Of a DNA stretch of 32,187 nucleotides, positions 429 through 31,332 are shown one piece after another. A program made the position numbers and the translations under genes. Location of the stretch: assembly GCA_019747655.1 (NCBI GenBank), contig JAIEQO010000080.1:1-32187 (forward strand), written 5' to 3'. This DNA comes from Gemmataceae bacterium (GTDB taxonomy: Bacteria; Planctomycetota; Planctomycetia; Gemmatales; Gemmataceae). Within the stretch, counting starts at the first letter, position 1; each line of letters starts with the position of its first letter. The notes under the pieces were generated by a model. That model saw only the letters and a list, made by a program, of their open reading frames with translations, ran no database searches and was not told the DNA's origin.

Positions 429-3400
429 ATGTCCAGCAAGTTCAAGGTGCCTCGCGAGTTCCTGCTCGTGCTGCTGGCGCTCGTCGTTCTGGGCGCCACC
501 CTCGTCGCCTTTCGCATGAAGAAGGGTGAGCCGGCGGGCATTACGGAGGAGCCTCGACAACCGGCGGTTGAGCCCGACCGGCCCCAGAACTCAGAACCGA
601 CACCACCCGCCCCGCCGGTACCGGCCGGACAGAATCCGCGTCCGCCGGCTCCGAACTCCGACGGTGCCAAGGGTGCGGCTGACCAGGCTACGGCGGTGAA
701 GCAGGTGATCGACGAGCTCGACCGCGACCTCGAAGGGAACGACGTCAAGCCGGGCGGGACGGTGGCGTGGAACCAAGGGGCGCTCGCGGACCCTCGTGAG
801 GCACTCCGCCGGCGGCTGGCCGAGTCCAACCTGACCCCGGAGCAGCAGAAGGCCGTCGAGGAGAAGGTCCGCAAGACCGTCGAGGACGAGTTCCGCGCGT
901 ACCTCAAGGCCCAGGAGCGGGGCTGGAAGCTCAACGAGCTGCCCGACCGCAACCTGCGGTTTACGGCCGCCATGCTGCCGGACACCCCTGACCCGGACAC
1001 GGACTTCGAGCTCCTGCTCAACTTCTCCGGCGTTCGGTACGTCGACCTGAGCCGAGTGCGGTGGAACGCGGTGTCGGAGGCTGGGTTCCGGCACCTCGCC
1101 GCCGCGAAGAAGGTGCAGGTGCTCAAGATCCCCGGGTACCCGCTCACCCGGCCGGTCGCCCAGGTGGTGGCGTCGCTGAAGCAGCTCGTCGAGCTCGACG
1201 CCCCGAACGCCCGGACCACGGACGACGGGCTCCGCGAGCTGGCCGTCCTCCCCGCGCTGCGGGTGCTGAACCTGGCCGGCACGCGGGTGTTCGGCGAGAA
1301 CCTGGACGGAGTCACCTTTTCCCGTCTGGAGTCGCTGTCGTTGGCGAACACCGGGTTCTCCGGCGGCGGCGTCCGCCCCGACACCTTTCCAGCACTCAAG
1401 CGGCTGAGCCTGACCGGCACGACCTTCACCGGCACCGGGCTCACTGCTCGGGCGTTCCCGGCCCTGGAGGAACTCGACCTCAGCGGTTCGAAGTTTGTCG
1501 GGGACGCGAGGACCGGGGACGCCTTCCCGGCTCTGAAATCACTCAACGTGCGGGAGTCCGCGTTCACCGGCACGGCTCTGGCCCAAGCCACCTTCCCCGC
1601 GTTGACCACGTTCACGGTCGGCAAGGCCCGCATCGAACGCCTGCCCCGGCTGCCGGCCGTCGAGCGGATCGACCTCAACGGCGCCACGATCACTGAGCCC
1701 GGGTGGGCCGACCTCGCTGGAATGACGACCCTTAACTCGCTCGACGTAGACGGGGTGCAGGTGACGGACGAGGCGGCGGCCGCCCTCGCCAAGCTGACCC
1801 GGCTGGAGACCCTCCGGTTCAGCCCGTCCGGGCTGGTGCTCTACCAACACCTACCGGCGTTTGCCAACCACACCCGCCTGGCGCTGCCGGACGCCACCCC
1901 GTTCTTCCCCCGGCGGAAGTTCGACCTCCTCCTCCCGGCCGCACCGGTGAAACATTTGGCGGGCTGGCAACGCTTGACCGCCCTCGACCTCAGCGGCTAC
2001 GCCACGTACGACGCGGACCTCGCCGCGGTCGGCCGGATGACCGGGCTGGAGCGACTCGATCTGACCGGCACCAACGTCACCTGGGCCGGCGTGGCGCAAC
2101 TCGCCTCCCTCCCCAAGCTCCAGTCGCTGACGCTCGCCAAAACCGCGGTCACGGACGAGGCGGTGTTGTACGTGGCTGCGATGGCCGAGACGAAGGCGCT
2201 CCGGACGGTCGACCTCACCGAAACGAAGGTGTCCGAGGCGGCCCGGGCTTGGCTGCTCGACCGCTGCCCGAAGCTCACGGTCGTCCCCGCCCCCGACGAC
2301 AAGGTCCGCGGCGTGGAGCCGAAGCTCGACCGGGCCGCGGTCGGCAGACCACTCGCCGCCTGGCCGGAGGAGGCCGACGGTGCCGTCGCCCTGGCCGTTG
2401 CCGTCCTCCGAGCGGGGAACGACCCGGCGAAAATGGTGCAGACGCTTACGACCCTCGACGGCCAGGGCCGACTCAAGCCGTCCAAAGACCCGGCCGTCGA
2501 CGAGTACGTAAGCTACGTCGTCAAGGCTTGCTTGTTGTGGAACCGCAAGGTGGCCGAGCACGTCCTTTCGAGTGCCGCCGAGAAGGACGAGTATTCCGCC
2601 TTCGTTCGCCAGACCGCCGTGTCGATCGCAATGCGGGAGAAGTTCGGGCACGACCTGGTGTACTCCCAGGGCGTACGACTCCTGAAAGCGGCGGCAACGG
2701 CGGGGCCGCCACTGTCCGCGGACGACGAAGCCATCATCCAGCATGCCACCGCGTTAGCGGCCCTGCTCCCGGCAGACCAGGCCAAGCGGGCGCGGGAATT
2801 CCTGGCCCGCCTCGGGGCGGCCTCGCCCCGCTTTTCGAGTCCCGCCCTCAAGGGCGCCGCGTACGACCTAGTTCACGGGAACCGGAACGGCCTGCCGGCG
2901 TGGCGGTGGTCGGTGACCGACCTCAAGGCCGACGCAAAGACCGGCAGCGTCACCAGGCGGGTGAGCCGACTGCTCCGGCCGGAAAGCACCCTCGAACTCC
3001 CCGCCGACCCGCAACGGAGTTACCCCCGGGTCACGTTCCACCCGAACCTGCGGGAAGTGGCCGTGTGGTCGGCCGCCGTCGGCATCCGTGTTTACGACTT
3101 GGCGACCAAAAAGGTTACTCGGGAGTTCACCGACTCGGGCGTGACGATCGGGGTAGACAACCTGAACTGGTCGCCGGACGGGAATTGGCTCAGCTACACG
3201 CTCCCGGACCGGTTCGTCGTGCGGCGGGTCACGGACGGGGCCCCGGTGATCGACAGAACCGTCGAAGGAACTCCAGCCCACGCCTGGAGTGCGGACGGCG
3301 TGCGGGTCGCGACCGTCTCGACAGCCCCGAAAACGAAGATCCTTAGCGTCGCCGTGTTTGACCCCAAGACGGGCAAGGAGGTCGGTCGGCTCGACGATGC

Positions 3401-6179: not shown

Positions 6180-6406
6180 CGGTCGGGAAAGTCGAGATGT
6201 GGTTCGACACGCGATGGGAGGAGGACGGCCCCGCCCTGCTAGGCCGGTTCCGCCGGCGGGCCCTCGCCCAGGGCTGGACCGTGGAGGAGGTCAACCGCTT
6301 CGTGTACAGGGCCGCGGTGAACGGTTATGACGACCTCGCTCGGGAGCTGGCGTTCTGGGTCATTCCCACCCCGCCCCCGACCGAGTTCGGGAAGGAGGGC
6401 CGATGA
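6176..6406 (+). CDS. Hypothetical protein (76 aa), second gene of the recombinase operon
   Basis: ATG 6176 overlaps the previous stop (ATGA, 6176-6179), and its own stop overlaps the antitoxin start (ATGA, 6403-6406). The sequence starts MTVGKVEMWFDTRWEEDG, is alpha-helical in the middle (LLGRFRRRALAQGW), and has a proline-rich tail. No family recognised. Position between an unknown gene and a Phd-type antitoxin allows a regulatory role, but nothing in the sequence proves one. Confidence 0.6.
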   Translation: MTVGKVEMWFDTRWEEDGPALLGRFRRRALAQGWTVEEVNRFVYRAAVNGYDDLARELAFWVIPTPPPTEFGKEGR

Positions 6407-6699
6407 CCGCCGAGCGGGTGTCGGTCAGCCGGCTCAAGGCCCGGCTCTCCGAGTGGCTCGGGAGGGTCCGGGCCGGGAAGACCGTCATCGTCACCGACCG
6501 AGGGAAGCCGGTCGCCCGGCTCGAACCGGTGAGCTGGGACGACGACCCGGACGGCCACCTCGCCGCCCTGGTCGCCGCCGGCCTCGCCCGCCGGCCGCTG
6601 CACAAGCTCGGGGCAAAATTCTTCGACGGCCCGCGGGTGAAGGACCCGACCGGCCAGGTCCTACGAGCATTACTCGCCGAACGGGAGAGCGGCCGATGA
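6403..6699 (+). CDS. Phd/YefM-type antitoxin-like protein
   Basis: The 98-residue product has the N-terminal Phd/YefM pattern: VSVSRLKARLSEWLGRVRAG then KTVIVTDRGKPVARLEP. This domain dimerises, binds its own operator and normally presents a C-terminal tail to a toxin. No toxin gene follows: the tyrosine recombinase begins inside its stop codon (ATGA, 6696-6699). It may be an orphan antitoxin, a transcriptional regulator of the recombinase operon, or an anti-addiction gene acting on a toxin elsewhere. The tail (about 45-98) is basic and alanine-rich. Confidence 0.8.
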   Translation: MTAERVSVSRLKARLSEWLGRVRAGKTVIVTDRGKPVARLEPVSWDDDPDGHLAALVAAGLARRPLHKLGAKFFDGPRVKDPTGQVLRALLAERESGR

Positions 6700-7682
6700 G
6701 CGGCGAACTGGTCGTGGTGAACAAGCACGATGAGGCGGTCGCCCTCGACCCCCGCTCGGTCCTCCCGCCCGCCATCCGGCAGGCCGGCCCCAAAGCCGAG
6801 GAGAAGTTCTTCGAGTTCTTCGCCGCCCGCATCCGCAACGTCAACACCCGGATGGCCTACCTCCGGGCGGTCAAGAAGTTCTTCGCCTGGCTCGAACCGA
6901 GGGGGCTGTCCCTCCCCCAGATTCGCCCCCTCCACGTCGCCGCCTACGTCGAGCAGCTCACCAAGGGCCGCTCCGCCCCGACCGTGAAGCAGAACCTGGC
7001 CGCCGTCCGGATGCTGTTCGACTACCTGGTCCTCAACCAGGTGGTGGAGATGAACCCGGCTTCCGCTGTCCGCGGGCCGAACTACTCGGCCAAGAAGGGG
7101 AAGACCCCGGTCCTCGATGCGGACGAAGCCCGCCAGCTCCTCGACCGCATCGACACGACGAGCGTGGTGGGTCTGCGGGACCGGGCGGTCATAGGGCTCA
7201 TGGTGTACACCTTCGCCCGGGTCGGGGCGCTGGTCGCCATGAACGTGGAGGACTACTACCCGCAGGGCAAGCGGTGGTGGGTGCGGCTGCACGAGAAGGG
7301 CGGCAAGCTCCACGAGGTCCCGGCCCACCACAAGCTCGAGGAGTTCCTCGACGCCTACCTGGAGGCGGCCAAGCTCTGGGACCAGAAGAAGGCCCCGCTC
7401 TTCCGGACTACCAGGGGGAAGACCAAGACGCTCACCGCCCAGCGGATGACCCGGCGGTGGGTCTATGAGATGGTGAAGCGGCGGCAGCGGGACGCCGGCA
7501 TCGAGACGGCCATCGGCTGCCACACCTTCCGGGCCACCGGCATCACCAACTACCTGACCAACGGCGGGACGCTGGAGAAGGCCCAGCAGCTCGCCAACCA
7601 CGAGTCCGCCCGGACGACCAAGCTCTACGACCGCCGGGACGACAAGCTCTCCCTCGACGAGGTCGAGCGGATTACCATCTAG
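6696..7682 (+). CDS. Tyrosine recombinase / integrase
   Basis: From ATG 6696 the product is 328 residues; the frame is open far upstream, but the ATGA overlap and the domain start fix this start. An N-terminal SAM-like core-binding domain (about 25-110) precedes the catalytic domain. Catalytic residues are visible: Arg175 (FARVGAL), Lys201/Lys204 (HEKGGK), His276 and Arg279 (CHTFRATG), His302 (ANHES) and nucleophile Tyr311 (KLYDRR). It could resolve plasmid multimers or integrate or excise a cassette. No att site could be assigned. It is convergent with the hydrolase cluster, with 13 bases between the stops. Confidence 0.93.
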   Translation: MSGELVVVNKHDEAVALDPRSVLPPAIRQAGPKAEEKFFEFFAARIRNVNTRMAYLRAVKKFFAWLEPRGLSLPQIRPLHVAAYVEQLTKGRSAPTVKQNLAAVRMLFDYLVLNQVVEMNPASAVRGPNYSAKKGKTPVLDADEARQLLDRIDTTSVVGLRDRAVIGLMVYTFARVGALVAMNVEDYYPQGKRWWVRLHEKGGKLHEVPAHHKLEEFLDAYLEAAKLWDQKKAPLFRTTRGKTKTLTAQRMTRRWVYEMVKRRQRDAGIETAIGCHTFRATGITNYLTNGGTLEKAQQLANHESARTTKLYDRRDDKLSLDEVERITI

Positions 7683-15259: not shown

Positions 15260-15724
15260 ATGTCCGAGGTAGTGCGGATTTCGGTCTCGCTCGAAGGCGA
15301 CCTCCTGGAGGCGTTCGACCGGTACGTCGAGAACGGCCGATACGCGACCCGCAGCGAGGCCGTCCGCCAGCTCGTCCGGGAGAAGCTGACGGCCGTGACC
15401 TCGGCTTCCGATAACGCCGAGGTGGCGGCCAGCCTCACCCTCGTCTACGACCACCACCGGCCGCGGCTGACTCAGGCCCTGGTGGACGCCCAGCACGAGG
15501 CCGGTGTCCTGGTCATCTCGGCGATGCACGTCCACCTAACCCACGACCTGTGCATGGAACTCATCGCCCTCCGCGGCCCGGCCCGGGAGGTCGAACGGCT
15601 GGCCGGTGAGTTGGGCGGGATGAAGGGCATCCACCAGGCCCAACTCGTCGTCGTCCACGCCGCCGCCGAGGGACCGGCCCACGGCCACCATCACCCGCAT
15701 CCGCACCCTCATCCCCACGGCTGA
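15260..15724 (+). CDS. nikR: Nickel-responsive regulator NikR with His-rich tail
   Basis: 154 residues from ATG 15260, preceded by AAGGAG (15246-15251). Residues 1-45 form a ribbon-helix-helix DNA-binding domain (VVRISVSLEGDLLEAFDRYV). The C-terminal ACT-like domain keeps the high-affinity nickel ligands His79, His90, His92 and Cys98, with the same 11-2-6 spacing as E. coli His76, His87, His89 and Cys95. An added tail HGHHHPHPHPHPHG (about 141-154) could bind extra metal. NikR represses or activates nickel uptake and nickel-enzyme genes. A NikR-box-like dyad lies over the promoter of the next genes (15774-15800). Confidence 0.95.
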   Translation: MSEVVRISVSLEGDLLEAFDRYVENGRYATRSEAVRQLVREKLTAVTSASDNAEVAASLTLVYDHHRPRLTQALVDAQHEAGVLVISAMHVHLTHDLCMELIALRGPAREVERLAGELGGMKGIHQAQLVVVHAAAEGPAHGHHHPHPHPHPHG

Positions 15725-15763
15725 AGGGCCACACCCGGGCCCGCCTTTCACATCCCTTTTTGG

Positions 15764-15801
15764 TTGCCGCCTGGTAGTACGTTTCTACGATGCGTATTAC
15801 C
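15764..15801 (+). promoter_or_regulatory. Candidate promoter overlapped by NikR operator
   Basis: TTGCCG (15764-15769) and TACGAT (15786-15791) are separated by 16 bases. An imperfect palindrome overlaps this promoter: half-sites GTAGTAC (15774-15780) and GTATTAC (15794-15800), 13 bases apart, extending to GGTAGTACG / CGTATTACC with 8 of 9 complementary positions. Seven-base GTnnTAC-type half-sites with a 13-14 base spacer are like NikR boxes described in deltaproteobacteria. It lies 49 bases after the nikR stop, so NikR binding would block this promoter. Confidence 0.6.
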
Positions 15802-15827
15802 GCCGGCGGAGCCGGGGGGAGGGCCGG

Positions 15828-15938
15828 ATGTACCGCTACCGCCACCCGGCCGACCCCCCGCCCCCGCCCTTCCGGCTCCTGCCGGCCGTCCTGGCGACCC
15901 TCGCCATGCTGGCCGCCGCCCTGCTGGCCAACCGGTAG
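15828..15938 (+). CDS. Small proline-rich membrane peptide (36 aa)
   Basis: ATG 15828 follows GGGGGGAGGG. The product starts MYRYRHPADPPPPPFRLLPA and ends in a hydrophobic helix VLATLAMLAAALLANR. It lies between the putative NikR-controlled promoter and the DUF1559 gene and would be co-transcribed with it. Function unknown. Confidence 0.6.
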   Translation: MYRYRHPADPPPPPFRLLPAVLATLAMLAAALLANR

Positions 15939-15962
15939 CCCCGTCCGCACCGAGGTCGACCC

Positions 15963-16964
15963 ATGACCCCCCGTGTCCCCCGCCGCCGGGCCTTCACGCT
16001 CATCGAGCTGCTCGTCGTCATCGCCATCATCGCCGTGCTCATCGGGCTCCTGCTCCCGGCCGTCCAGAAGGTCCGGGCCGCGGCCGCCCGGATGAAGTGC
16101 CAGAACAACCTGAAGCAAATCGGCTTGGCCCTGCACAACCACGAGAGCGGCCTCGGGTTCTACCCGACCGGGTACTGGCGGAAGACGTGGCCGACCGACC
16201 CGACCAACCCGAAGGGGCACTTCCGGTGGTCGGCCCTGGCCCAACTCACCCCGTACCTCGAACAGACCAACGTCTACAACGCCCTCGACCTGACGTACCC
16301 GCTCTACGGCGGCGGGTCGCTCCAGCCGGAGGTCATCCCGTTCCCGCCCAACCGCCCCGCTGTCGCGGCCATCGTCTCCATCTTCCTCTGCCCGTCCGAC
16401 GAGACCCGCACCGTCATCCTTGGGCAGGGGCCGAGCAACTACGTGGCGTGCAGCGGGGCCAACTTGAGCGGGGACGCCCTGACCGGGGACGGGATGTTCA
16501 AGGGGGTCAACCTCGACGTCGAGAAGAACGCCGGGGTGAAGGTCGCCGCCGTCCGGGACGGGCTGTCGAATACCGTCGCCTTCTCCGAAACGCTGCTCGG
16601 GCCGGGCGGGGAAGCCCCGCCCGGGGCGGCCGACGTGCGGCTCTACTACAAGGACGTGAACGCCCTGTCCGAGGGGAACTGCTCGGCCAGCACCAAGTTC
16701 GTCACCGACCGCGGGGCGCTGTGGGCCGACGGGGCGTACAACTGCACCCTCTACAACAACGTGCTGCCCCCTAACAGCCCCACGATGGACTGCGTCCAGC
16801 ACAGTAACCCCGCCTGGAAGGCGGCCCGGAGCCGGCACGACGGCGGGGTGAACGCCCTCCTCGGGGACGGGTCGGTCCGGTTCGTCCGGGACGCCGTCGC
16901 CGTCCCGACCTGGCAGGCCCTCGGGACCCGGGCCGGGGACGAGGTCATCCCCGGCGACTTCTAA
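15963..16964 (+). CDS. DUF1559 prepilin-like protein
   Basis: 333 residues. The N-terminus has a type IV prepilin/pseudopilin leader: basic RVPRRRA then [20 protein letters not shown], with cleavage expected before Phe. This is followed by [20 protein letters not shown] and a [12 protein letters not shown] motif that define planctomycete DUF1559 proteins. The C-terminus has the usual [16 protein letters not shown] segment. These proteins are highly expanded in Planctomycetes and probably form surface or periplasmic pseudopilin structures. Position 25 bases after the small membrane peptide and 23 bases before the DUF4198-like gene suggests one transcript under the NikR-type operator. Confidence 0.95.
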
Positions 16965-16987
16965 ACCCATCCTTCGCGGAGGTCCCC

Positions 16988-17680
16988 GTGCGATACCTCA
17001 CGGCTGCTCTCGCCACCCTCGCCGTCGTGTCCGCCGCCCCGGCCCACTTCGTGTTCGTGTACGTCGCCGACGGCGGCACCGAGGCCCGGCTCGTGTTCGG
17101 GCACACCGCCGCCCCGGACCCGAACAGCTTCCCGACCCGGGCCGAGAAGACCACCCTGACCGCCCGCGATGGCAGCGGAGCGGAGACGAAGCTCGCGGTC
17201 GAGAAGGGGGACGGGAATTACTTTCGGGCCAAGCTCCCGGGCGGAAAGACGGTCGTCGTGTACGGGACGACCGAGGCCGGGGTGACGCAGCGGGGGGACA
17301 ACCCGCCGCTCCTGTCTTGGTACTACCCGAAGGCCATCCTCGGGGACCCCTTCGCCGACCGGGCGGCGGTCGGTCCTTCCGCCCCGCTCGACATCGTCCC
17401 CGTCCGGGACGGTGGGAAGGTCCGGTTCAAGGTCGTGGCCGCCGGGAAGCCGGCCGTCGGGGTCGAGGTGACGGTGGGGCTCCCGGGCGGGGATGAGGAC
17501 AAGGCCCCGGTCGTGAAGACGGACGCCGACGGCATGACCGAGGGGTTTACCGAGGCCGGGCGGTACTGCGTGGCCGCCCGGAGGTCGGACGACAAGTCGG
17601 GGGAGCTGGGTGGCAAGAAGTACGCCGCCGTCCGGCACACCGCGACCGTCGTGTTCGACTTCGCCCCCTCCAGCAAGTAG
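16988..17680 (+). CDS. Exported DUF4198-like protein (possible nickel-uptake accessory)
   Basis: GTG 16988 follows GGAGGT (16978-16983). The 230-residue product has a signal peptide (MRYLTAALATLAVVSAAPAH), ending just before an HFVFVY segment typical of DUF4198, whose mature proteins often begin with a metal-binding His. Residues about 125-190 look like an Ig-like domain (RFKVVAAGKPAVGVEVTVGL). The C-terminal YAAVRHTATVVFDF is also characteristic. Some DUF4198 members (NikK/CbiK-like) assist nickel or cobalt import; together with nikR upstream this supports a nickel-related role here, which is inference. Confidence 0.8.
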   Translation: MRYLTAALATLAVVSAAPAHFVFVYVADGGTEARLVFGHTAAPDPNSFPTRAEKTTLTARDGSGAETKLAVEKGDGNYFRAKLPGGKTVVVYGTTEAGVTQRGDNPPLLSWYYPKAILGDPFADRAAVGPSAPLDIVPVRDGGKVRFKVVAAGKPAVGVEVTVGLPGGDEDKAPVVKTDADGMTEGFTEAGRYCVAARRSDDKSGELGGKKYAAVRHTATVVFDFAPSSK

Positions 17681-18051: not shown

Positions 18052-18128
18052 ACTCCATCACTCGCTCACTGCACCCGCTGCAACCAGCGAGGAGGGCGGA
18101 GAAGTTGCTGACGGGCCGACCCCGTCTG

Positions 18129-18143
18129 TGGTATCCTGGCGGC
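18129..18143 (+). promoter_or_regulatory. Extended -10 promoter, short or absent leader, vapBC
   Basis: TGG-TATCCT at 18129-18137, hexamer beginning 12 bases before ATG 18144. A TGACGG at 18109-18114 stands 17 bases upstream and could be a weak -35. The spacing equals that before the genes at 4289 and 14170. No ribosome-binding site fits between the -10 and the ATG. Confidence 0.5.
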
Positions 18144-18416
18144 ATGGCAACCGACCTGACCCTTTCCCCGCCCCCCCGCACGCTCGACCTGACCGGGCTC
18201 CCTGAGCCCGTCATCGAGCAGGTGACGCGGATTGTCCGTGAGGCACGGGAGAAGCAAACCGGGGAAGTGACCCCTTCTGCCGAGGGTGCACGCCCGCCGC
18301 TCCGGGGCCGACTCGCCCACCTCGGGCTCAAGACGCCGACCCTCGAAGAGTTCGAGGAAGCTCGGCGGGAGATGTGGGCGAGCTTCCCCCGCGACCTCCC
18401 GGACCAGGCTAAGTGA
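18144..18416 (+). CDS. VapB-like antitoxin (paralog B)
   Basis: 90 residues. The N-terminus MATDLTL plus TLDLTGLPEP and the following helix match the protein at 14170 at 25 of 37 positions. The C-terminal part (PTLEEFEEARREMWASFPRD) is an acidic/amphipathic segment with a Trp, as expected for a VapB tail that wraps a PIN toxin. Its stop overlaps the toxin start (GTGA, 18413-18416), giving translational coupling. The N-terminal half probably dimerises and binds DNA, although it is not a clear AbrB or ribbon-helix-helix domain. Confidence 0.8.
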   Translation: MATDLTLSPPPRTLDLTGLPEPVIEQVTRIVREAREKQTGEVTPSAEGARPPLRGRLAHLGLKTPTLEEFEEARREMWASFPRDLPDQAK

Positions 18417-18820
18417 ACGACGTCGTCGCCGACAGTCATGCCATCGTCTGGTTCCTGGCCGACCCTCCCCGGCTATCGCCGAGGGCCCTGGCCGCCCTCA
18501 CCGCCGCCCAGAACTCCGGCCGGATATGGGTCGCCACCATCACCTTCGTCGAGCTGACCTACCTCGTCGAGAAGGGAAAGCTCGACCCCCAGGTCCTCTC
18601 GGAGCTATGGACGGTCGTTCGTGACCCGTCCGAGCCGGTGGAGGCCCTCCCGCTGACGCTCGATGACGCCGCCGTGCTCGACCAAATCCCCCGCGGCACC
18701 GTGCCCGACATGCCGGACCGCATCATCTCGGCCACGGCCTTCGCTCACAAGCTCCCGCTCGTCTCGGCCGACTCGAAAATCCGCTCGCTCACCGTCCCCG
18801 GGCTCACGGTCGTCTGGTGA
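18413..18820 (+). CDS. vapC: VapC-like PIN-domain ribonuclease toxin
   Basis: 135 residues from GTG 18413. The PIN-domain acidic residues are in place: Asp7 (VVADSHAIVWFL), Glu47 (TFVELTYL), Asp102 (MPDRIISATA) and Asp120 (LVSADSKI). These coordinate Mg2+ for single-strand RNA cleavage, usually of tRNA or rRNA. The antitoxin gene directly upstream overlaps it. The pair would act as a plasmid stabilisation module. It ends before a possible terminator at about 18842. Confidence 0.92.
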   Translation: MNDVVADSHAIVWFLADPPRLSPRALAALTAAQNSGRIWVATITFVELTYLVEKGKLDPQVLSELWTVVRDPSEPVEALPLTLDDAAVLDQIPRGTVPDMPDRIISATAFAHKLPLVSADSKIRSLTVPGLTVVW

Positions 18821-18955: not shown

Positions 18956-19648
18956 CTACGCCGCCAGCCCCTCGCTGTCCGGCAGCTCGAACGGCTTCAC
19001 GATGGTCCGCTTCGTCCGGAGGACCGACGCCGGCAGCCGCTCCAGACCCGCCGCATGCCGTGCCTTGTTCACCCAGCGGAGGAGGTTGAAGAGCTGGACC
19101 CGCACCGGGGCGTACGGCTCGAACGGGATGGCGTAGAACGCCCGGGCCAGCTCGTCGGCCGGGAGCCGGGTGGCCAGCTCCAGGAAGTGGGCTTTGAGGT
19201 CCAAGTACCGCTCCCGCCCAATCGCCACCCGCACCCGAAGCTTGCCGTCCTCAACGGCCGGTTCGTCCGGGTCGTCGCGGCGAAGGTAGCCGCCGCGGAC
19301 CACCCGGAGCGAGTACCCGCCCACCTTCAACGCCACCTTCCGGACGTCCCGGACGTTCGCGGCCTCGGCCTCGAAGAAGTCATGCCGGCCGTGGGTCGCC
19401 ACGAGCACCCACTCCCGGCCGAACCGGAGGTAGTGGAGGTTCGCCAGCCCCGCCCGCTTCCGCCGCGACCGGGCCGACGGGCTCAGGTCGACCCCGTACT
19501 TGCCCATCATCTTCCGGTCGATGGCGGCCGGGTCCTTGCCGTCGGGGACCCGGCCCCGGACGTAGAAGAAGTACCCGTGCGGGAGGAGGTTCGCGGCCAG
19601 GTGCTGGACGAACCCTTCGAGGGAGGTGGCTTCGAACCGGTACGACAT
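18956..19648 (-). CDS. Conserved planctomycete hypothetical protein ('SYRFEATSLEGFVQ')
   Basis: 230 residues from ATG 19648, preceded by GGTGG. The start MSYRFEATSLEGFVQHLAAN, the middle RRKRAGLANLHYLRFGREW and WVLVATHGRHDFF, and the end FEPYAPVRVQLFNLLRWVNK form a well-ordered alpha/beta protein. I recall closely similar proteins as recurrent in planctomycete genomes, but without an assigned function. The frame is open to 19942, but only low-complexity residues lie upstream of this start. It precedes a 1.45-kb gene-free stretch, with which it may form one mobile or RNA-linked unit. Confidence 0.75.
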   Translation of the reverse strand: MSYRFEATSLEGFVQHLAANLLPHGYFFYVRGRVPDGKDPAAIDRKMMGKYGVDLSPSARSRRKRAGLANLHYLRFGREWVLVATHGRHDFFEAEAANVRDVRKVALKVGGYSLRVVRGGYLRRDDPDEPAVEDGKLRVRVAIGRERYLDLKAHFLELATRLPADELARAFYAIPFEPYAPVRVQLFNLLRWVNKARHAAGLERLPASVLRTKRTIVKPFELPDSEGLAA

Positions 19649-21104
19649 GACCACCGGTCGGGGTGAAGATGGGAGCTGCTTCTGTGCTCTGGTGAGCCCC
19701 CTTAACCAGCGAACCGAACCGAACAACCTCCGACGCTCCCGACCCGTCCGACAGCCGCTCGGCCTTGCCTGCCTAGCTGTCTTCCAAGTCGGGCAAGCCC
19801 ACGTAATGGGCTTGCCGCCGTCCAAAGACCTTCCAGGTTCCCGCCGCTCGTGGGTACACGGGTAGCGGGCCCCATCGATTCGTCGCCGGAAGAAGGACAC
19901 GCTCCCGCGTCTCCTTCGGCCGACCGCTTCACCTCCTGCCACAGAACAGCGACCGGCCCGAGGCTCCCGTCGGGGAGGCCTCGGGCGGACGCCGCCATCT
20001 CGACCTAGTGGAACAGTGCCGGTCTCCCCTTTCGTCGTCGTCTACGTTCGGCACCACCCGGAACGCACGAACGGGCCGCGAGTGCCTTCCCGCGAACACC
20101 GCCCGGGCAGAGGCGAAGGGTCCCCCCTCCGCGTGCCCGGCTCCTACTCAAGGACCACTCCCAGGGAACGGCTTTTGAAGCACCGAGCCGACCAGCTCGG
20201 CACCGGGGACCAACCCGGCCGCCGCACCCCTTCCCGCATTAGTCACGGCCTCCGAAGAACGAGTCACGCGGCTAGCGAGCGTCAAGGCTCGCGGTCTCAC
20301 GCCCTATGTCCGGGGTTCCCCCGCGGCATAGTTTCCAGGCCGCTCGGCCTGATTTCCTGGGGCAGAAGACAGAAGCTCCCCAGTACCCTTGAGCGTGAAC
20401 GGTTCGCCACCTCACCCCCGCCTATCGGGGTGGTGAGGCCTGTTCGGCGTCGTCTCTCGTTCCCCTCACCGGCAAGCCCTTGCCGTGCTCGTGGCACTTC
20501 GGGCCTCTCGTGGTTGAGCTCTTCGCCGCCTTCTCTCGAAGGACGCCGGGAGTGTCTCCCCCCGGGTTCGCCTGTCGCCAGGTCGAACGCTCCCCACGCC
20601 GGCCACGTTGAACGCCCATTGCAGGGTCGAACCCCGTGGGCGGGATTTGAGGGGCCTTCCTTTTTAGGCCACCTCGCACCCGCTTCGGTTCATGACGACC
20701 CGCACCAGAGGTGCGGGCGTGTCTGCGTCGCCCTTCCTCGTCGGCCGCCGTGGTGCGGCCGGGCGGATTGGATAGAAACGCCGGGATTGCTCCTCGGTCG
20801 GCCACTGCCATACGAGGGCAGTGAACCAGAGGCATTACTCCGGCGAGCCTCCATCGAGCACGGACAAGCCACTCTCGCGGCATCCGGCTCTACCGGCCGA
20901 ACACGTGGCAGGTGGTTAGCCTGCACCCCTTAGCCCGATTGGTGGTCGGGTTTACCGGGCGTGTTCGCCACTAGGAAGACGCTGTCAAGCTTCACGCATT
21001 GACGGTTCGAGCGGGCCCTATCCGGGGCTCGCTCTACGGGAGGTTATGGTGCCGGGCGCGGCTAAGGAAGCAAGGCGGCGGTGAAGAGTGACAACGGGCT
21101 GTCA
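19649..21104. other. 1.45-kb gene-free, hairpin-rich region
   Basis: No frame here has credible protein composition; the longest (20016-20933) is rich in Arg, Pro and Ser with no domain. Many local stems are visible: CCCGAGGC with GCCTCGGG near 19957-19985, CCGAGC with GCTCGG near 20183-20200, CTGGGG with CCCCAG near 20357-20383, CGCACC-aga-GGTGCG at 20701-20715, and CACTGCC with GGCAGTG near 20803-20823. This is suggestive of a long structured RNA, a decayed element or an unrecognised intron. I could not identify a group II domain V. Confidence 0.5.
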
Positions 21105-22541
21105 CTACGCCGCGGGCCGCTCCGCGTCCATCGCGTGGGCGAGGAGCTTGTAGCGGCACTGCTCGGCGAACGTCGCGAGCCCCCGCTCGCTCGCCTTCCG
21201 GTAGTGGTCGAGATCCTCGGCCGGGCCGAGCGTCAACGCCCGCTCCTCGAACGCCGCCCGCTCGGCCGCCGACAGCGACTCGAGGAACGCATCGACCCGG
21301 GCCCGTCGCTCGGCGATGAGCGCCCTCTCCGACTGGGCGGCCTCGGTCCGCTTCCGCGCCTCACGGGTCTGCTCGGCTAGCTCTTTTCGCTTCGCCTCGG
21401 CCTGGGCCGCCTTGACGGTCGAAGGGGTGAACCCGTCGGGCAGCGGGTACTCCTTCTCGATGGAGGCGTAGAGGTATCCGCTCGGCTTCTCCGGCTTGTC
21501 CTTCCGGCCCATCAGCCAGTCGAAGGCCTCGATGCGAACGGCGATGGCGTCGGCCGGCCTCTCCGCGACGAGCTTCCGGGCCGAGTCGCGGTGGACGCCC
21601 CGGCCCACCAGCTCGGCGACGAGCAGGGGTTCGGGCGGCGGGGCCGGCTTCGCCTCGACGGCCTTCGGGACCTGGACCGCCTTCCGCACGAACAGCACCC
21701 GCCACCGGCCGCGGCCGGCCTTGGCGTAGCGGTCTGTGCCGGGGAGCGGTTCGAGGAAGCCACGCTCCTCGAGCTCGCGGAGGGCCGGCTCGAGCTTCTG
21801 CTTCACCTTCCACGGCTCGTAGTCGCGGGAGAGCCCGACCTTCTCGAAGGCGAGCTCGCCCAGGTCGAACTCGAGCCGCTCGCTCCGGTAGAAGTGCTTG
21901 TCCAGGAACCGGTAGAGCCGCTTCGCGATCGCCGAGTCAAGGCTCTGGTAGAAGCCCAGGTCGATCTGCTTGATGTAGTTGGCGCGGAAGCTCTTGAACG
22001 CGACCTTGTTCCACTCGAGGAGGACCTTGCCGCCCCTCCTCCCCTGCCCCTTGCCGATGGCGACCGTGTCGAGCACGTGGAACCCGACGTCCATCCAGGC
22101 CTTGTCCTCGTTGTCCCACCAAGCGTTCTCGTAGTGCAGGTAGGCCGCCGCCCAGCGGTGGAGGCACTCCTCGATCCGCTTGTAGGAGCGGCCGTCGACC
22201 GACCAGCCGAGGAGGTTTACCAGCTCGTAGCGGGTCGTCTGGATCGTCGGCTCGGTGAAGTTGTTCTGGGCCTTGGTGAGCGCCAGCAACCCGAGGAGTA
22301 CCTCCTCGTCCTTCACCGTCGGCAGCCCGTAGGGCTCCGGCCCCGAAACCCGCAGCTTCCGGGCAACTGGCCGGCCGGTGTCCTTGTCGCTGATGATGTC
22401 CTGGAACACGAGCTCGGTGACGCCGTCCGGAACCCGGTCGGTGAGCAGCGCCACCGGGAACTCGGCGAAGTTCATCTCGTCGCGGGCCGTCGGCGTCGCC
22501 AGCGAGTCGGGGAACAGCGATGGGGTGGTGGAACGGCCCAT
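21105..22541 (-). CDS. Plasmid replication initiator protein (RepA/RPA-like)
   Basis: ATG 22541 gives 478 residues; a TTG nine bases upstream (22550) is an alternative. The N-terminal half (about 20-270) resembles the replication initiator protein A / winged-helix initiators: MNFAEFPVALLTDRVPDG, a GLPTVKDEEVLLGLLALTKA segment and KRLYRFLDKHFYRS. The C-terminal third is charged and helical (AQAEAKRKELAEQTREARKR), probably a coiled coil. Seven iteron-like repeats lie directly upstream of its start, the usual arrangement for iteron plasmids in which Rep binds the origin and represses itself. Confidence 0.85.
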   Translation of the reverse strand: MGRSTTPSLFPDSLATPTARDEMNFAEFPVALLTDRVPDGVTELVFQDIISDKDTGRPVARKLRVSGPEPYGLPTVKDEEVLLGLLALTKAQNNFTEPTIQTTRYELVNLLGWSVDGRSYKRIEECLHRWAAAYLHYENAWWDNEDKAWMDVGFHVLDTVAIGKGQGRRGGKVLLEWNKVAFKSFRANYIKQIDLGFYQSLDSAIAKRLYRFLDKHFYRSERLEFDLGELAFEKVGLSRDYEPWKVKQKLEPALRELEERGFLEPLPGTDRYAKAGRGRWRVLFVRKAVQVPKAVEAKPAPPPEPLLVAELVGRGVHRDSARKLVAERPADAIAVRIEAFDWLMGRKDKPEKPSGYLYASIEKEYPLPDGFTPSTVKAAQAEAKRKELAEQTREARKRTEAAQSERALIAERRARVDAFLESLSAAERAAFEERALTLGPAEDLDHYRKASERGLATFAEQCRYKLLAHAMDAERPAA

Positions 22542-22566
22542 ATAACCCAACTCTTCACCGCATCAC

Positions 22567-25569: not shown

Positions 25570-26124
25570 GTGCCTGAGAGGCAGCCTGTTGGGAAAACCG
25601 GTGAAGCCAAGAAGCTCACCACCTCGTTCCAATGGCTCGACCGAGACACGTGGCCGGCGCTTGAGCGGCTCGCAACGAGTCGCGGCTTCACCAGCGTCGG
25701 TCTATTCGCTCGGCATCTGTGCGAGCAGGCGATCCGGGAGCCGGCGGCGACACCCGTCGCCGGGCCCATGACGGCACCTGCCCCGTCCGAGGGGAATGGC
25801 CAGCTTGCGGCACTCGCCGCGTCGCTCGAAGCGGTTCGCGGCGACGTGGCCAGGCTCGTCGAGGCTCAGCCGGTGGGCGACGTTCGCAAGCTCCGTCGGG
25901 CCGTCCGTGACCTCGGCGAGGTGGTGAAGGATGAGTTCGTTCAGCTCCGCGAGGATGCCGGCAAGCGCATCGAGCTGGCGTCGGGCGAGCTGAACCGGAT
26001 GCGGTACGCGATCGCCCTCGCCGCAGTTGCAGTGCTTACGGAGGTGAAGCCGGATTGGTCCGGCGACACCGTCAACCAGTGGGTTGCTGAGCGATTCTTC
26101 GACGGCTTCCCAGACCGGGGGTAG
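25570..26124 (+). CDS. Putative relaxosome accessory DNA-binding protein
   Basis: GTG 25570 follows GGGGG at 25558-25562 and gives 184 residues; an in-frame GTG at 25549 is less well placed. The N-terminal part (about 15-60: LTTSFQWLDRDTWPALERLA, SRGFTSVGLFARHLCEQAI) looks like a small DNA-binding or ribbon-helix-helix domain. Residues about 85-150 are a predicted coiled coil (LEAVRGDVARLVEAQ, LRRAVRDLGEVVKDEF). It ends four bases before the relaxase start, like TrwA/MobC-type helpers. Family assignment is from position and shape only. Confidence 0.65.
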   Translation: MPERQPVGKTGEAKKLTTSFQWLDRDTWPALERLATSRGFTSVGLFARHLCEQAIREPAATPVAGPMTAPAPSEGNGQLAALAASLEAVRGDVARLVEAQPVGDVRKLRRAVRDLGEVVKDEFVQLREDAGKRIELASGELNRMRYAIALAAVAVLTEVKPDWSGDTVNQWVAERFFDGFPDRG

Positions 26125-26128
26125 CCTT

Positions 26129-28717
26129 GTGCTCTCCGTTCACAAAATCCGTTCGGGCGGCGCGTACCACGCCTACCTGCGGTCCGAGTACTACCTCGGC
26201 CAGGACGCTACGGCCGAGTGGTTCGGCCGGGGTGCGGAAACGCTCCGGCTGTCCGGACCTGTCGACGACCGAGACCTCGTGGCCCTCATGGGCGGGCTGA
26301 CGCGGGACGGCCGCCGGCTCGTCGAGAGCGCCGGCGCGAGGCCCGACCCGGAGACCGGTAAGGGCGGTCATCAGGTGGGGTGGGACCTCACGTTCTCCGC
26401 CCCGAAGCCGTTCGGTGTGCTGTGGAGCGCGGCCGACCCCGAAACCCGCGGCCGGCTCGAGGGGTGTCACGTCGCGGCCGTGAAGGCGGCGCTCGGGTAC
26501 ATCGAGCAGACCGGGGCTCACGTGCGGGTGAAGGAGGCGGGTAAGACCCGCCTGGAGCCGTGTGGCCTGGTGGCCGCCCTGATCCACCACGACCGTAGCC
26601 GAGCGAACGACCCGCAGCCGCACACTCACGCCTACGTGGCCAACGTCGGCGTGACCTCGGGCGGGAAGACCCGCACTGTCGAGAGCGGCGGGTTCTACGC
26701 CCTCAAAATGGCCGCCGGGGCTCTGTACCGGGCGTCGCTCGCCCACGGGCTGCGAACCAGCCTCGGGCTCGAACTCGATCCGCACGGGGTGGCGTTCAGC
26801 GTACGTGGCGTTCCCGAACCGCTCGTCGAGGCGCACTCGAGGCGGCGGGCCGACGTACTCCAGAAGCTCGACGAGTTGCGCGACACCCGGCGGATCCGCC
26901 GGGCGTCGGCGAGGGCGGCCGAGCTCGCGGCGCTGGAGACCCGGCGGGCGAAGGAGGTGGTCCCGGTCGAGGAGAGCCGGCGGGCATGGCGGGCCATCAA
27001 TGACCAACACGGGCTCACCGAGGCCGCCGCCAGGTCGCTCCTCAGCCGCTCACGGGCGGTGAAGCCGCCGGACTTCGGCCGGCTGGTTCGGGACGCCGCC
27101 CGCGACCTGACCCAGAAGCAGAGCTACTTCTCGGAGCCGGACCTTCTCCGCCGCGCGGCCGAACGCTGCCAGGACGGCCGGGCCGATGCCGAGTCGCTCC
27201 GGGCCGCCGTTCGACGGGCGATCGGCGGCCCTGGGTTCGTCCGTCTCGGCACCCACAAGCGGTGGGAGCAGTTCACCACGAAGGAGATGCTCGGCGTCGA
27301 GCGGCGGCTGTTCGGCACCGTCGAACGCCTAGCGGGAGACGGCTCCCACCGGGTCAGGCGGGGCGTCGTCGAGCGGCTCGCGGCGGAGCGGTTCCCGAAT
27401 ACGGGCAAGCTCACGGCCGACGAGCGGGCCCGCAACAACGAGCAGCGGGCCGCGGTCGAGCGGCTGACCGCCGAGGGCGGCGGCATCGCCCTCCTCGCCG
27501 GGATGGCCGGGACCGGCAAAACGACCGTACTCCGCACCTGCAAGGACATCTGGGAGAAGGCCGGGTTCCGCGTGACCGGCATCGCCCTCGCCGGGGTGGC
27601 GGCCGAGAACCTCCGCGAGAAGGCCGGTATCGAGAGCGACACGCTCGCCATGCGGCTCACCCAGCTCGAGCGGGCGTCAGCGGGCAAGGACGCAAAGCGA
27701 CCCTTCAACATGGACGCGAAGACCGTCGTCGTCCTCGACGAGGCGGGGATGGTCGGGACGCGGCAGCTCGAACGGCTCGCCCGGAACGTAGCCGACGCCG
27801 GGGCGAAACTGGTGCTGGTCGGCGACAGCAAGCAGCTCCAGCCGATCGATGCCGGGGGGCCGTTCGCGAGCCTCGCCCGGCGCATCGGGGCTGCTACACT
27901 GGACCACATCACGCGGCAGAAGCAGCAGGCCGACGACCCGGCCCCGACGTGGGCGCGGGAGGCGGTGCGGGCGTTCGCCGCCGGCCGGGCCGAGGACGGG
28001 CTCAGGCTGTTCGCCGACCGCGGCCTCGTCCACGTCGCCCCCACGCGGGGGGCGGCCATGAAGCGGCTCGTCCGGGAGTGGGAGAAGGCCGGGGGGTTGG
28101 AGCGGCCTGGGGACCACGTGATCCTGGCCGGCACGAACCGCGAGGTGGACTCGCTCAACGCCCTGTGTCAGCGCCGGCGGCTCCGGGCCGGGCGGGTGGC
28201 CGTCCCCGATGGGGGCCGCACGCCAAAGCGGGAGCGGCAGGGCGTCACGGTCGAACGGGACGGCCACTCGGAGCGAATCCTCCGGGGTGACCGGGTTCTG
28301 TTCACCGAGAAGGACCGCTCGATCGGCGTCGAGAACGGGCACTTCGGCACCGTGGCTGGGATACGCCGGACGACCGGCGGGCCGGTCGTGAAGGTGAGGC
28401 TCGACGGCGGGGCGGTGGTCCGGGTCGCGACCACCCACTACCACGGCCTACGGCTCGGCTACGCCGCAACCACGCACAAGCTCCAGGGCGCGACGTGTGA
28501 GCGGGCCTACGTCCTGGTCGGTGGGACCATGCAGGACCGCCACCTATCCTACGTCCAGAGCTCGCGGGCCGTCGAACAGACCCGGTTCTACGTGGACCGG
28601 TACGAGGCCGGGGAGGGGCTGGCGGATGTCACCCGGCAGATGGGGCAGGACCGGGAGAAACGGCTCGCGGTCGACCTGCTGGACGGGCCGGGCCGCGAAC
28701 GCGGCCACCAACTGTAG
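26129..28717 (+). CDS. MobF conjugative relaxase-helicase (TrwC/TraI-like)
   Basis: GTG 26129 gives 862 residues; GGGGG seven bases before it and the TrwC-like start LSVHKIRSGGAYHAYL support it over the open frame upstream. The TrwC relaxase domain covers about 1-290: candidate nucleophile tyrosines Tyr13/16 and Tyr21/22, and the metal-binding motif HHDRSRANDPQPHTH with His154, His165 and His167. The helicase part has Walker A GMAGTGKT (458-465), Walker B VVVLDEAGM (about 533) and late motifs GYAATTHKLQGAT and YVQSSRA. It nicks oriT, stays bound to the 5' end and unwinds the transferred strand. It is shorter than R388 TrwC (966) because the C-terminal tail is reduced. Confidence 0.95.
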   Translation: MLSVHKIRSGGAYHAYLRSEYYLGQDATAEWFGRGAETLRLSGPVDDRDLVALMGGLTRDGRRLVESAGARPDPETGKGGHQVGWDLTFSAPKPFGVLWSAADPETRGRLEGCHVAAVKAALGYIEQTGAHVRVKEAGKTRLEPCGLVAALIHHDRSRANDPQPHTHAYVANVGVTSGGKTRTVESGGFYALKMAAGALYRASLAHGLRTSLGLELDPHGVAFSVRGVPEPLVEAHSRRRADVLQKLDELRDTRRIRRASARAAELAALETRRAKEVVPVEESRRAWRAINDQHGLTEAAARSLLSRSRAVKPPDFGRLVRDAARDLTQKQSYFSEPDLLRRAAERCQDGRADAESLRAAVRRAIGGPGFVRLGTHKRWEQFTTKEMLGVERRLFGTVERLAGDGSHRVRRGVVERLAAERFPNTGKLTADERARNNEQRAAVERLTAEGGGIALLAGMAGTGKTTVLRTCKDIWEKAGFRVTGIALAGVAAENLREKAGIESDTLAMRLTQLERASAGKDAKRPFNMDAKTVVVLDEAGMVGTRQLERLARNVADAGAKLVLVGDSKQLQPIDAGGPFASLARRIGAATLDHITRQKQQADDPAPTWAREAVRAFAAGRAEDGLRLFADRGLVHVAPTRGAAMKRLVREWEKAGGLERPGDHVILAGTNREVDSLNALCQRRRLRAGRVAVPDGGRTPKRERQGVTVERDGHSERILRGDRVLFTEKDRSIGVENGHFGTVAGIRRTTGGPVVKVRLDGGAVVRVATTHYHGLRLGYAATTHKLQGATCERAYVLVGGTMQDRHLSYVQSSRAVEQTRFYVDRYEAGEGLADVTRQMGQDREKRLAVDLLDGPGRERGHQL

Positions 28718-28726
28718 GGAGGACCG

Positions 28727-29212
28727 GTGAACCGAAGAACCGCCCTCTTCGTGCTGGTCGTGGCGATCCCCGCGGTCTACTTCGCGGTCGCGCTCGCCGT
28801 CGTCTCGACGACGGAGGTGCTGCGGCCGGAGTCCCGGCTCCCGTTCGCTCTCCTGTACGCCGGCCTCGCCCTGGTCGCCGGGTTCTCGGACTTCTACAAG
28901 CTCCAGTTCGCCCAGGAGACGCCTGGGCCGGCTTGGCTGGACACACGGGGGTTCGTGCGGCGAGCGGTCCGCCAGCACGCGGTGACGGTCCTGTTCATTG
29001 CCCTGGGTGTGGCCGCGTGCGTCCTGCTCGATATCGACCGGCCCTGGCCGGTCATGGTCGGGTTCGTCGCAGGGCCGCTAACCAAGCGGGGTTTAGAAAC
29101 CTTCGTCTATTACACCAGCTTCACGGTCAGCACGGTTTACGAAAAAGTTATGTACCTGGCTGATCTGCTGCTGTACTTCGGCATTGTCCTCGTCCTGCTC
29201 CGGGGGTGGTGA
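28727..29212 (+). CDS. Transfer-region membrane protein 1 (161 aa)
   Basis: GTG 28727 follows GGGAGG (28717-28722). Hydrophobic stretches at about 5-27, 38-56, 83-103 and 143-160 suggest four membrane helices. It is co-directional with the relaxase and lies 10 bases after it. No family recognised. With the next gene it may supply the membrane part missing from the coupling ATPase. Confidence 0.75.
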   Translation: MNRRTALFVLVVAIPAVYFAVALAVVSTTEVLRPESRLPFALLYAGLALVAGFSDFYKLQFAQETPGPAWLDTRGFVRRAVRQHAVTVLFIALGVAACVLLDIDRPWPVMVGFVAGPLTKRGLETFVYYTSFTVSTVYEKVMYLADLLLYFGIVLVLLRGW

Positions 29213-29215
29213 CTG

Positions 29216-29713
29216 GTGGACCCCTCCTCGCCCGGCATGCTGTTCGTCCGGCTGGCGGTCCTGTGGCCGTCCGCCTTCGCCGTCTTCGGCTGGCTGATGG
29301 CTTTCGATCTCGACCTGTTCGCCTCGGCCCCGGACCGCTGGTTCAAGGTCGCCGTCACCGGGCTGACTGTGGCCCTAGTCCCATTCTCGCTAGGGGTCAA
29401 CGACTGGTTCCAGTTCGTGTGGCGGGAGGTAGAGACGGACTACCCCGAGCGGTTCCTGCGTCGGCAGGACACGCTTTACGCCGGGGTGTTCGCGATGGCG
29501 GTCGCCGCCTTCCCGTTCATCTGGCTGATCGGGCCGACCGACTACCAGGTCCTCCCATACTTCGCGGCCGGCGTCGCGTTCTTCACGGTCCGCGCGTACC
29601 TCGCCGTCCCGCGGGCCGAGAGCCCGACCCCGCCGGAGCGGGATGAGAACTACAACGTGGAAGTTCCAGACCACCTCAAGGGCGACCCCAGGAAGCGGAG
29701 GAAGCAGCCGTGA
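29216..29713 (+). CDS. Transfer-region membrane protein 2 (165 aa)
   Basis: GTG 29216 begins three bases after the previous stop. Hydrophobic segments at about 9-30, 42-60, 90-108 and 112-128 suggest four membrane helices, followed by a charged cytoplasmic tail (ERDENYNVEVPDHLKGDPRK). Its stop overlaps the start of the coupling protein (GTGATG, 29710-29715). The tight coupling suggests that all three products assemble together. Confidence 0.75.
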   Translation: MDPSSPGMLFVRLAVLWPSAFAVFGWLMAFDLDLFASAPDRWFKVAVTGLTVALVPFSLGVNDWFQFVWREVETDYPERFLRRQDTLYAGVFAMAVAAFPFIWLIGPTDYQVLPYFAAGVAFFTVRAYLAVPRAESPTPPERDENYNVEVPDHLKGDPRKRRKQP

Positions 29714-31332
29714 TGGGCGTCCTGGGGTGGCTCAAGTCGCTCTTTGTGGCCGACGCCGAGGGGTTGTACTTCGGCGGGCTCCGCGTCTCGGACGAGAAGG
29801 GCGAGGGCGGGTTCATGCTCGTCGGGGTGCCGGGGACGGGCAAGACCGTCGTCATCGACATGGTGCTCCGGCAGGTCCTCCCGCCGATCGCCGACGGGTC
29901 CCGGGACGACCGGGCGCTCATCTACGACCCGAAGCGGGAGTACATCTCGAAGTTGCAGAGGCTCGGCTACTTCGACCCGGTGTCCGCCGGGATGGCGGGC
30001 ACCGCGTTCGACCCCGCCACGGACGCAACAAACGTGGTTATCACCAACCCGCTTGACGAACGGGGGCTGTGTTGGGAGGTGGCCAAGGATTTCGACCGGC
30101 TGCTCGACGCCCGGCAGTTCGCAACGGTTCTTACGGCCGATGCCCGGGAATACGGCTCGGGGGGCGGCACGGACAAAGAGTTTTTCGTCGAGAGCTGCAC
30201 GCAACTCTTTCAGGCAGTCTTCAAGGTGTTGCACCGCCGTAAGCCGTACCGGCCCGGCCTGCCCGGGTCGGGGTGGAGCCTCCGCGACTTCATCCTCGCG
30301 TTTGAGGATTACGACGACCTGGAGATGTTGCTGAACGGTAAGGACGCCGCCGACGACACCAGGAAGCCGTGGAACGACTTCCTCGGCAAGGCGATCATGC
30401 GGGGCGAGACCGGCCCATCGGTGGTGGCCTCGGTCGGCAAGTACCTTGGGCGGATTAGAGACATCGCAGCGGCGTGGGACGCCATCCGGCGGAAGCACCC
30501 GTCCCGGACCTTTTCGTTCCGGGAGTGGGTGAATGGACGCAAAATCCTGATCCTGGGCAGCTCAGAGCGGTACGGCCCGCTGCTCCACATCGCCAACCGC
30601 TTGCTTTTCCACAAGGCGGCTGTCGAGTTGTTTGAACACAGGCGGCAGAACGACGCCGCCCGGAACACATGGGTCGTCCTGGACGAACTCCCGGAGCTCG
30701 GTCACCTGACTGACCTTCACCGGCTGCTCGCGAAAGGCCGTAGCTGGGGCATCCGGGTGTTGTTCGCGTTCCAGAACTACAGTCAGCTCAGGGAGGTGTT
30801 CGGGGACCACCAGGCGGACAGCATCGTCAGCCTCGCCCATACGTTCGCGGTGTTCAACTGCGGCGTCGACACCGCGGAGCGCGAGTCAAAAATGTTCGGC
30901 GAGTACACCGACCAGCAAGGCCGGTCGAGGCCGCGAGTCAGCCCCACTGACATTACCGACCTGCCCGTTGACCCTGTCGAACGAGGCGTCGTCGGCTGGT
31001 ACTACTCGAAGCGGTTGCCCGAGCCCCGGGCCAGGAAGCGGGCCATGCCGTGGTCGGAGGTGAAGAAGACGTTCATTCAGAGAGACGGGCTATGGGATAC
31101 GGTCGAGCGGGAGAACGAGGAGGACTTCGCGCTCAAAATCTGGGAGGATGAGGAGCGGGCCGTCCTCAAGCTCGGCGGCCGGGGCCGGATCGACCAGGTG
31201 CCGACCTACGACGGCCTCCAGCACCTCGTCGACCGCCTGAAAAAGGAAAAGGGCCAGGCGAACCCGGTCCTTCAGCGAGTACAATCGTTGCTCGACCAGG
31301 CCAAGGAGGGTGAGCGTGGCAAAGGGCGATAA
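29710..31332 (+). CDS. Coupling-protein ATPase (VirD4/TrwB/TraD-like), no N-terminal membrane domain
   Basis: 540 residues from GTG 29710, or 539 from ATG 29713; GGAGGAAG lies at 29698-29705. Walker A GVPGTGKT is at 39-46 and Walker B VVLDE at 322-326, followed by LPELGHLTDLHRLLAKGRSW and LFAFQNYSQLREVFG, typical of type IV coupling proteins. The usual two transmembrane helices before Walker A are missing: only about 38 residues precede it. It would pump the relaxase-bound strand towards a secretion channel. No VirB-type channel genes occur on the plasmid. Confidence 0.9.
   Translation: MMGVLGWLKSLFVADAEGLYFGGLRVSDEKGEGGFMLVGVPGTGKTVVIDMVLRQVLPPIADGSRDDRALIYDPKREYISKLQRLGYFDPVSAGMAGTAFDPATDATNVVITNPLDERGLCWEVAKDFDRLLDARQFATVLTADAREYGSGGGTDKEFFVESCTQLFQAVFKVLHRRKPYRPGLPGSGWSLRDFILAFEDYDDLEMLLNGKDAADDTRKPWNDFLGKAIMRGETGPSVVASVGKYLGRIRDIAAAWDAIRRKHPSRTFSFREWVNGRKILILGSSERYGPLLHIANRLLFHKAAVELFEHRRQNDAARNTWVVLDELPELGHLTDLHRLLAKGRSWGIRVLFAFQNYSQLREVFGDHQADSIVSLAHTFAVFNCGVDTAERESKMFGEYTDQQGRSRPRVSPTDITDLPVDPVERGVVGWYYSKRLPEPRARKRAMPWSEVKKTFIQRDGLWDTVERENEEDFALKIWEDEERAVLKLGGRGRIDQVPTYDGLQHLVDRLKKEKGQANPVLQRVQSLLDQAKEGERGKGR

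Follow-up and report, generated by a model that had tools for sequence, protein, structure and literature searches.

A stretch of about 1.45 kb with no plausible gene raised the question of what it encodes. The window, the whole stretch of 32,187 nucleotides that was analysed from a Gemmataceae bacterium, carried it at 19649-21104, flanked by the 3' end of repA (22550-21105, minus strand) and by a 230-aa gene (19648-18956, minus strand). The first-pass annotation had described it as hairpin-dense and without a plausible protein, and had suggested that it could form, with the neighbouring recurrent planctomycete gene, a mobile unit with a large structured RNA. Mechanical open reading frames of 305 aa (20016-20933, plus strand), 153 aa (20422-20883, minus strand) and 98 aa (19702-19998, minus strand) were present. 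G+C-rich DNA commonly shows long open frames. Compared with two close relatives, substitutions were even over the codon positions (65/67/73 and 45/44/57), and 4 of 39 and 2 of 16 indels kept the frame as multiples of three. By contrast, the codon-position counts of the neighbouring 230-aa gene were 30/27/80 and 43/29/86. A decayed gene was ruled out by the codon-position counts, which also meant that the homologous DNA of relatives did not code for a protein.

Folding gave a consistent picture. The minus strand of 20970-20018 folded better than 20 of 20 dinucleotide shuffles (z = -4.7); the plus strand reached z = -3.2 and the neighbouring coding sequence z = -1.9. RNAalifold on 29 homologues gave -525 kcal/mol, against -111 ± 7 in column-shuffled alignments. 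In these 29 sequences, 37 helices extended over the whole RNA, almost all with compensatory changes. The codon-position and indel pattern, the shuffle test and the RNAalifold covariation meant that the hairpin-dense, non-coding stretch was real and strongly conserved across homologues, and the large structured RNA proposed beside the gene was borne out. The RNA recurred in planctomycete genomes, and the RNA proper took up about 950 nt of the stretch (20967-20018, minus strand).

Architecture and identity of the RNA

The first lead was a match to Rfam RF00029 on 20892-20767 that was below threshold (32 bits, E = 8e-4); at gathering thresholds, no match to Rfam was found. Comparison of homologues showed the domain order D5, D6, the splice sites in reversed order, D1, D2 and D3. 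A rotated order with reversed internal splice sites marks an RNA as a circularly permuted (CP) group II intron. Taking the explanation as a whole, we consider it very probable that 20967-20018 (minus strand) is a CP group II ribozyme and that acpG, the gene that follows, encodes its protein partner.

All elements were on the minus strand. The 5' domain (20898-20967) consisted of a closing stem (20967-20961/20904-20898) and two inner hairpins, with covarying helices in 29 sequences, and by position it was the counterpart of P1/P2 in CP group II RNAs. It was followed by the strand GCCGGU (20892-20897) and by domain 5 (D5, 20856-20890), the catalytic hairpin, with a GAGC start containing the AGC triad, a GAGA loop and a 2-nt bulge. 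The triad, the capped hairpin and the bulge were all present and covarying (GAGCCGGAUGCCGCGAGAGUGGCUUGUCCGUGCUC); D5 was 98% paired, with double changes in 8 pairs. Domain 6 (D6, 20769-20853) contained a bulged branch-point adenosine, A20773, followed by UCCAAU, and this adenosine was invariant in the alignment of 30 copies. Double changes were found in 22 of 30 pairs of D5 and D6 among the 30 planctomycete copies.

The predicted 33-nt circle (20734-20766) was located between the 3' splice site (U20767 and C20766) and the 5' splice site (A20734 and G20733). This linker ranged from 14 to 48 nt in the 30 copies, with an invariant AU before it and a near-invariant GGGCGAY after it. Its last six nucleotides covaried with one loop of domain 1, which corresponded to the IBS/EBS pairing. 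Each copy reached 3.83 of 6 Watson-Crick pairs with its own EBS, compared with 2.98 with the EBS of other copies (0 of 2000 permutations). In the window, the IBS (20735-20739) paired with the EBS (20369-20365) through 5 bp, one of them G-U, plus a mismatch adjoining the splice site, which counted against the explanation as a CP ribozyme.

Domain 1 (D1, 20233-20733) started with GGGCG and contained the EBS loop. Domain 2 (D2, 20163-20230) was a stem with two hairpins, and the purine-rich J2/3 (GGGAGUGG, 20155-20162) contained a near-invariant GGGAG. Domain 3 (D3, 20025-20154) had an invariant ACGAAAG close to its 3' end, and the strand ACCGGC (20018-20023) followed. D5, D6 with its bulged adenosine, the splice sites (AU, linker, GGGCG) and their order were near-invariant in the 30 planctomycete copies.

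The two short strands formed a helix between the end of D3 (ACCGGC, 20023-20018) and the start of D5 (GCCGGU, 20897-20892). It was paired in 100% of cells in the planctomycetes, with double changes in 4 of 6 pairs. A D3-D5 helix of 6-9 bp, differing in sequence, was also found in the pK2D_1, B. glumae, Azotobacter and pPNAP05 RNAs. No clear counterpart was seen in pMtBL or pTT8, and none was found in some other RNAs. In canonical introns, D4 carries the protein that the intron encodes, the maturase. The position of the helix suggested that it may be the basal stem of D4 cut open, readable as such in canonical order. The permutation point would therefore be located in D4, with acpG where that protein is normally encoded.

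The CP group II RNA class ('T-large') was described by Roth et al. 2021 (PMC8637638), who showed its chemistry in vitro and reported that the processed RNA was not seen in Polaromonas cells, a point against the proposed processing. Class members are further marked by an E-loop at the base of D3 and by three pseudoknots of their own (P1 with the 3' end, D2 with P2, and D3 with D1). The window RNA was similar to the class as described there in domain order, D5 and D6 features, reversed GGGCG and AU splice-site motifs, a length of about 900-950 nt, plasmid residence and a nearby AcpG gene. Its short linker of 33 nt compared with 15-86 nt in the class (PMC8637638). A covariance model built solely from planctomycete copies recovered the published pPNAP05 RNA (46 bits, E = 4e-11) and, weakly, the published pTT8 RNA at the expected place (18.7 bits, E = 0.003). 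The same model recovered further RNAs, in pMtBL and in plasmids of Planococcus, E. coli, Burkholderia, Sulfuriferula, Azotobacter, Calothrix and Leptolyngbya. In contrast to the published RNAs, the hosts included Planctomycetota and Cyanobacteriota, whereas the main text of PMC8637638 names Deinococcus-Thermus, Firmicutes and Proteobacteria. The nearly constant position of acpG immediately downstream on the same strand, and the reading of the D3-D5 helix as a split D4, also differed from the published description. D5, D6, D1, the IBS/EBS pairing and J2/3 were shared with canonical bacterial group II introns. However, the domains were rotated, D5-D6 was not 3'-terminal, the splice sites were internal and not at the outer ends, there was no reverse transcriptase, and the predicted products were a circle and a branched RNA.

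AcpG and its association with the RNA

AcpG is an orphan protein that was noted near CP group II RNAs by Roth et al. (PMC8637638). The 230-aa gene (18956-19648, minus strand) was separated from the ribozyme by a leader (19649-20017, minus strand) with many hairpins and lower conservation. Direct BLAST of the planctomycete protein against Thermus TTHC007 was too weak and failed, so profiles were needed to link the two. Profile-profile comparison joined the gene to the proteobacterial AcpG family (E = 5e-20), which takes in the neighbour gene of the published RNA on pPNAP05, and the proteobacterial profile matched TTHC007 (E = 1.5e-11), with full-length collinear similarity through the proteobacterial members. 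Since TTHC007 is AcpG, the 230-aa gene was assigned as acpG. No match was found for AcpG in Pfam, NCBIfam, PHROG or PDB families, no reverse transcriptase or maturase match was found in acpG, and no resemblance to known recombinases was seen. No relatives were found in viral contigs and phages. A single PADLOC match of one family member to Cas11a looked like chance. AlphaFold prediction from three sequences was poor (pLDDT 48). The position of the gene, its association with the RNA and its conserved basic residues suggested that AcpG most likely binds RNA and acts as a cofactor of the ribozyme, and its position suggested that it would stand in place of the canonical maturase.

The recurrence of the gene, already proposed in the first-pass annotation, was confirmed together with its pairing to the RNA. 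In the source genome (7.3 Mb, 1113 contigs), six copies of the gene were found, preceded by homologous DNA wherever the contig extended far enough, and the gene was present in 33 of 199 relatives searched, the source genome being counted among the 199. An iterated profile search detected the 950-nt element ahead of the gene, in the same orientation, at 43 of 46 loci. The three exceptions were a locus ending close to the gene (L072), a fragmentary gene (L062) and an RNA about 6 kb upstream (L084). Among 398 genomes of the host's class, the RNA, counted at E below 1e-10, was found in 71 (about 18%) and AcpG in 77. Both were present in 66, the RNA only in 5, AcpG only in 11 and neither in 316 (Fisher p about 3e-57). 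Weaker RNA matches (30-43 bits, many to D5/D6 of the model only), which are probably canonical introns, were left out of these counts. One-partner genomes occurred partly owing to contig ends. RNA distances followed AcpG distances (Mantel r = 0.83, 0 of 2000 permutations).

Several individual copies were also observed. Two single-contig genomes (G227:C1:2312254 and G239:C1:1985728) carried AcpG without an RNA detected by the D5/D6 model, the RNA being divergent or lost. Plasmid5 of Calothrix sp. NIES-4101 (L100) had tandem CP RNAs (629-774 and 2780-2916), 2 kb apart, upstream of one acpG. In pMtBL of Pseudoalteromonas TAC125 (L102), an apparently unrecognised CP group II RNA started at about 3115, and orf1 (110-817), so far unassigned, was an AcpG gene. 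This plasmid is the one behind cold-adapted expression vectors. In L070 (G026:C335:4000-11000), a canonical group II intron (about 887-3290) interrupted the permuted ribozyme within its D5 hairpin. The nested intron had its own D5/D6 (RF00029, 51 bits) and a 617-aa reverse transcriptase/maturase/HNH protein (1392-3242, plus strand).

Plasmid setting and proposed role

The RNA was located directly 3' of repA (21105-22550, minus strand), which encodes a 481-aa replication initiator of the RPA/TrfA/Rep3 type (Pfam RPA 3e-15, TrfA 2e-7). RepA-like and/or ParA/ParB genes were found in 16 of 21 neighbourhoods, mostly at most about 7 kb away on the 5' side. In the source genome, both repA genes and three of the four parA genes were on contigs bearing the RNA-acpG unit. 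In E. coli, the RNA occurred in 21 of 5426 genomes, and all 23 places were on plasmids. The window also encoded ParAB. At 6327-7682 and 26084-31332 (plus strand), a tyrosine recombinase beside a Phd-type antitoxin-like frame, a TrwC relaxase and a TrwB-type (TrwB/TraG) coupling protein were found, so the plasmid looks mobilizable or conjugative. A PIN-domain toxin-like gene (18413-18820, plus strand) was preceded by a 103-aa frame (18105-18416), a possible antitoxin with no Pfam match. A NikR-type nickel regulator with a His-rich tail was followed by DUF1559 pilin-like and DUF4198 proteins (15260-17680, plus strand).

The published chemistry of the class suggests how the window copy would process itself. 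A20773 in D6 would attack the 5' splice site between A20734 and G20733, and the freed 3' end of A20734 would attack the 3' splice site between U20767 and C20766. Back-splicing would release the 33-nt circle (20766-20734). The remaining transcript would be a branched RNA, with D5-D6 linked 2'-5' to D1-D3 and the acpG message coming after D3. The weakest step is the role. Since the RNA-AcpG pair lies behind rep/par genes, our guess from this location is that it may serve the upkeep or expression of the carrier plasmid.

It is possible, but less likely, that the RNA, as a self-splicing-derived leader, works mainly by controlling acpG and not as part of plasmid upkeep. Branching or circle release would then alter the translation or stability of the downstream acpG message, and AcpG may feed back. 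In planctomycetes, the two were on the same strand, with the D5 start 1.2-1.4 kb ahead of acpG in ten loci measured. No terminator-like site was found between them, and the co-divergence of RNA and protein was consistent with such regulation. However, the RNA and acpG were divergent in pPNAP05, pTT8, E. coli, Burkholderia and Azotobacter, which meant that a shared transcript was not general.

A replication or copy-number RNA, whose circle or branched form would act on the repA message or the origin, appeared doubtful. The RNA was directly behind repA in the window and in four further loci (L153, L157, L168 and L169), that of pPNAP05 was close to the origin, and E. coli copies were restricted to plasmids. 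Against this, nearly the whole RNA of pTT8 can be deleted with replication unaffected (cited by Roth et al., PMC8637638), and the 842-bp OriR of pMtBL (1918-2759), outside the CP RNA and acpG, replicates alone. Copy-number control by the pMtBL RNA was dropped, as both this OriR and the copy-number mutations were outside the RNA. Outside its own site, the window contained no match of more than 12 nt to the 33-nt circle and no convincing target for it, and no rep/par gene was found in 5 of 21 neighbourhoods by the queries used. It is unlikely that the RNA is essential for replication itself.

The mobile unit of the first-pass annotation, in the sense of RNA and gene moving autonomously, fared worse and is now very improbable. 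Up to six copies occurred per genome, and copies at least 90% identical were found in different genera (L075, L083, L022), which also fits plasmid transfer. In close pairs, homology stopped near the RNA 5' end and just past the acpG stop. However, no transposase or terminal inverted repeats were seen, AcpG was unlike any known recombinase, and the upstream rep/par genes were conserved alongside the unit, which fits a module of plasmid backbones. That the RNA is a functionless canonical group II intron, decaying and rearranged by chance, is scarcely credible: its D5/D6 are similar to those of canonical introns, which seem common in these genomes (from weak matches, many confined to model positions 11-133), but the rotated order with near-invariant catalytic nucleotides is maintained across phyla, with about 70 of 398 genomes carrying it, reverse transcriptase is absent, and compensatory changes occur all along the RNA.

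The ribozyme class and AcpG are already known from Roth et al. (PMC8637638). Compared with its main text and the other papers found, the Planctomycetota and Cyanobacteriota hosts, the near-fixed RNA-acpG unit and the split-D4 reading are new. New, too, are the copies in E. coli, pMtBL and Planococcus, with some of the plasmids possibly included in its Data S1, and the ribozyme whose D5 houses a canonical group II intron goes beyond its main text. For the preferred reading of a CP group II ribozyme with its partner AcpG, the planctomycete set adds phyla, near-obligate AcpG pairing, co-divergence and a steady plasmid-backbone setting, which leaves fewer hypotheses on the role. Only a small number of large natural ribozymes have been described. 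With complete copies present on E. coli plasmids, a direct genetic test is feasible in a laboratory strain.
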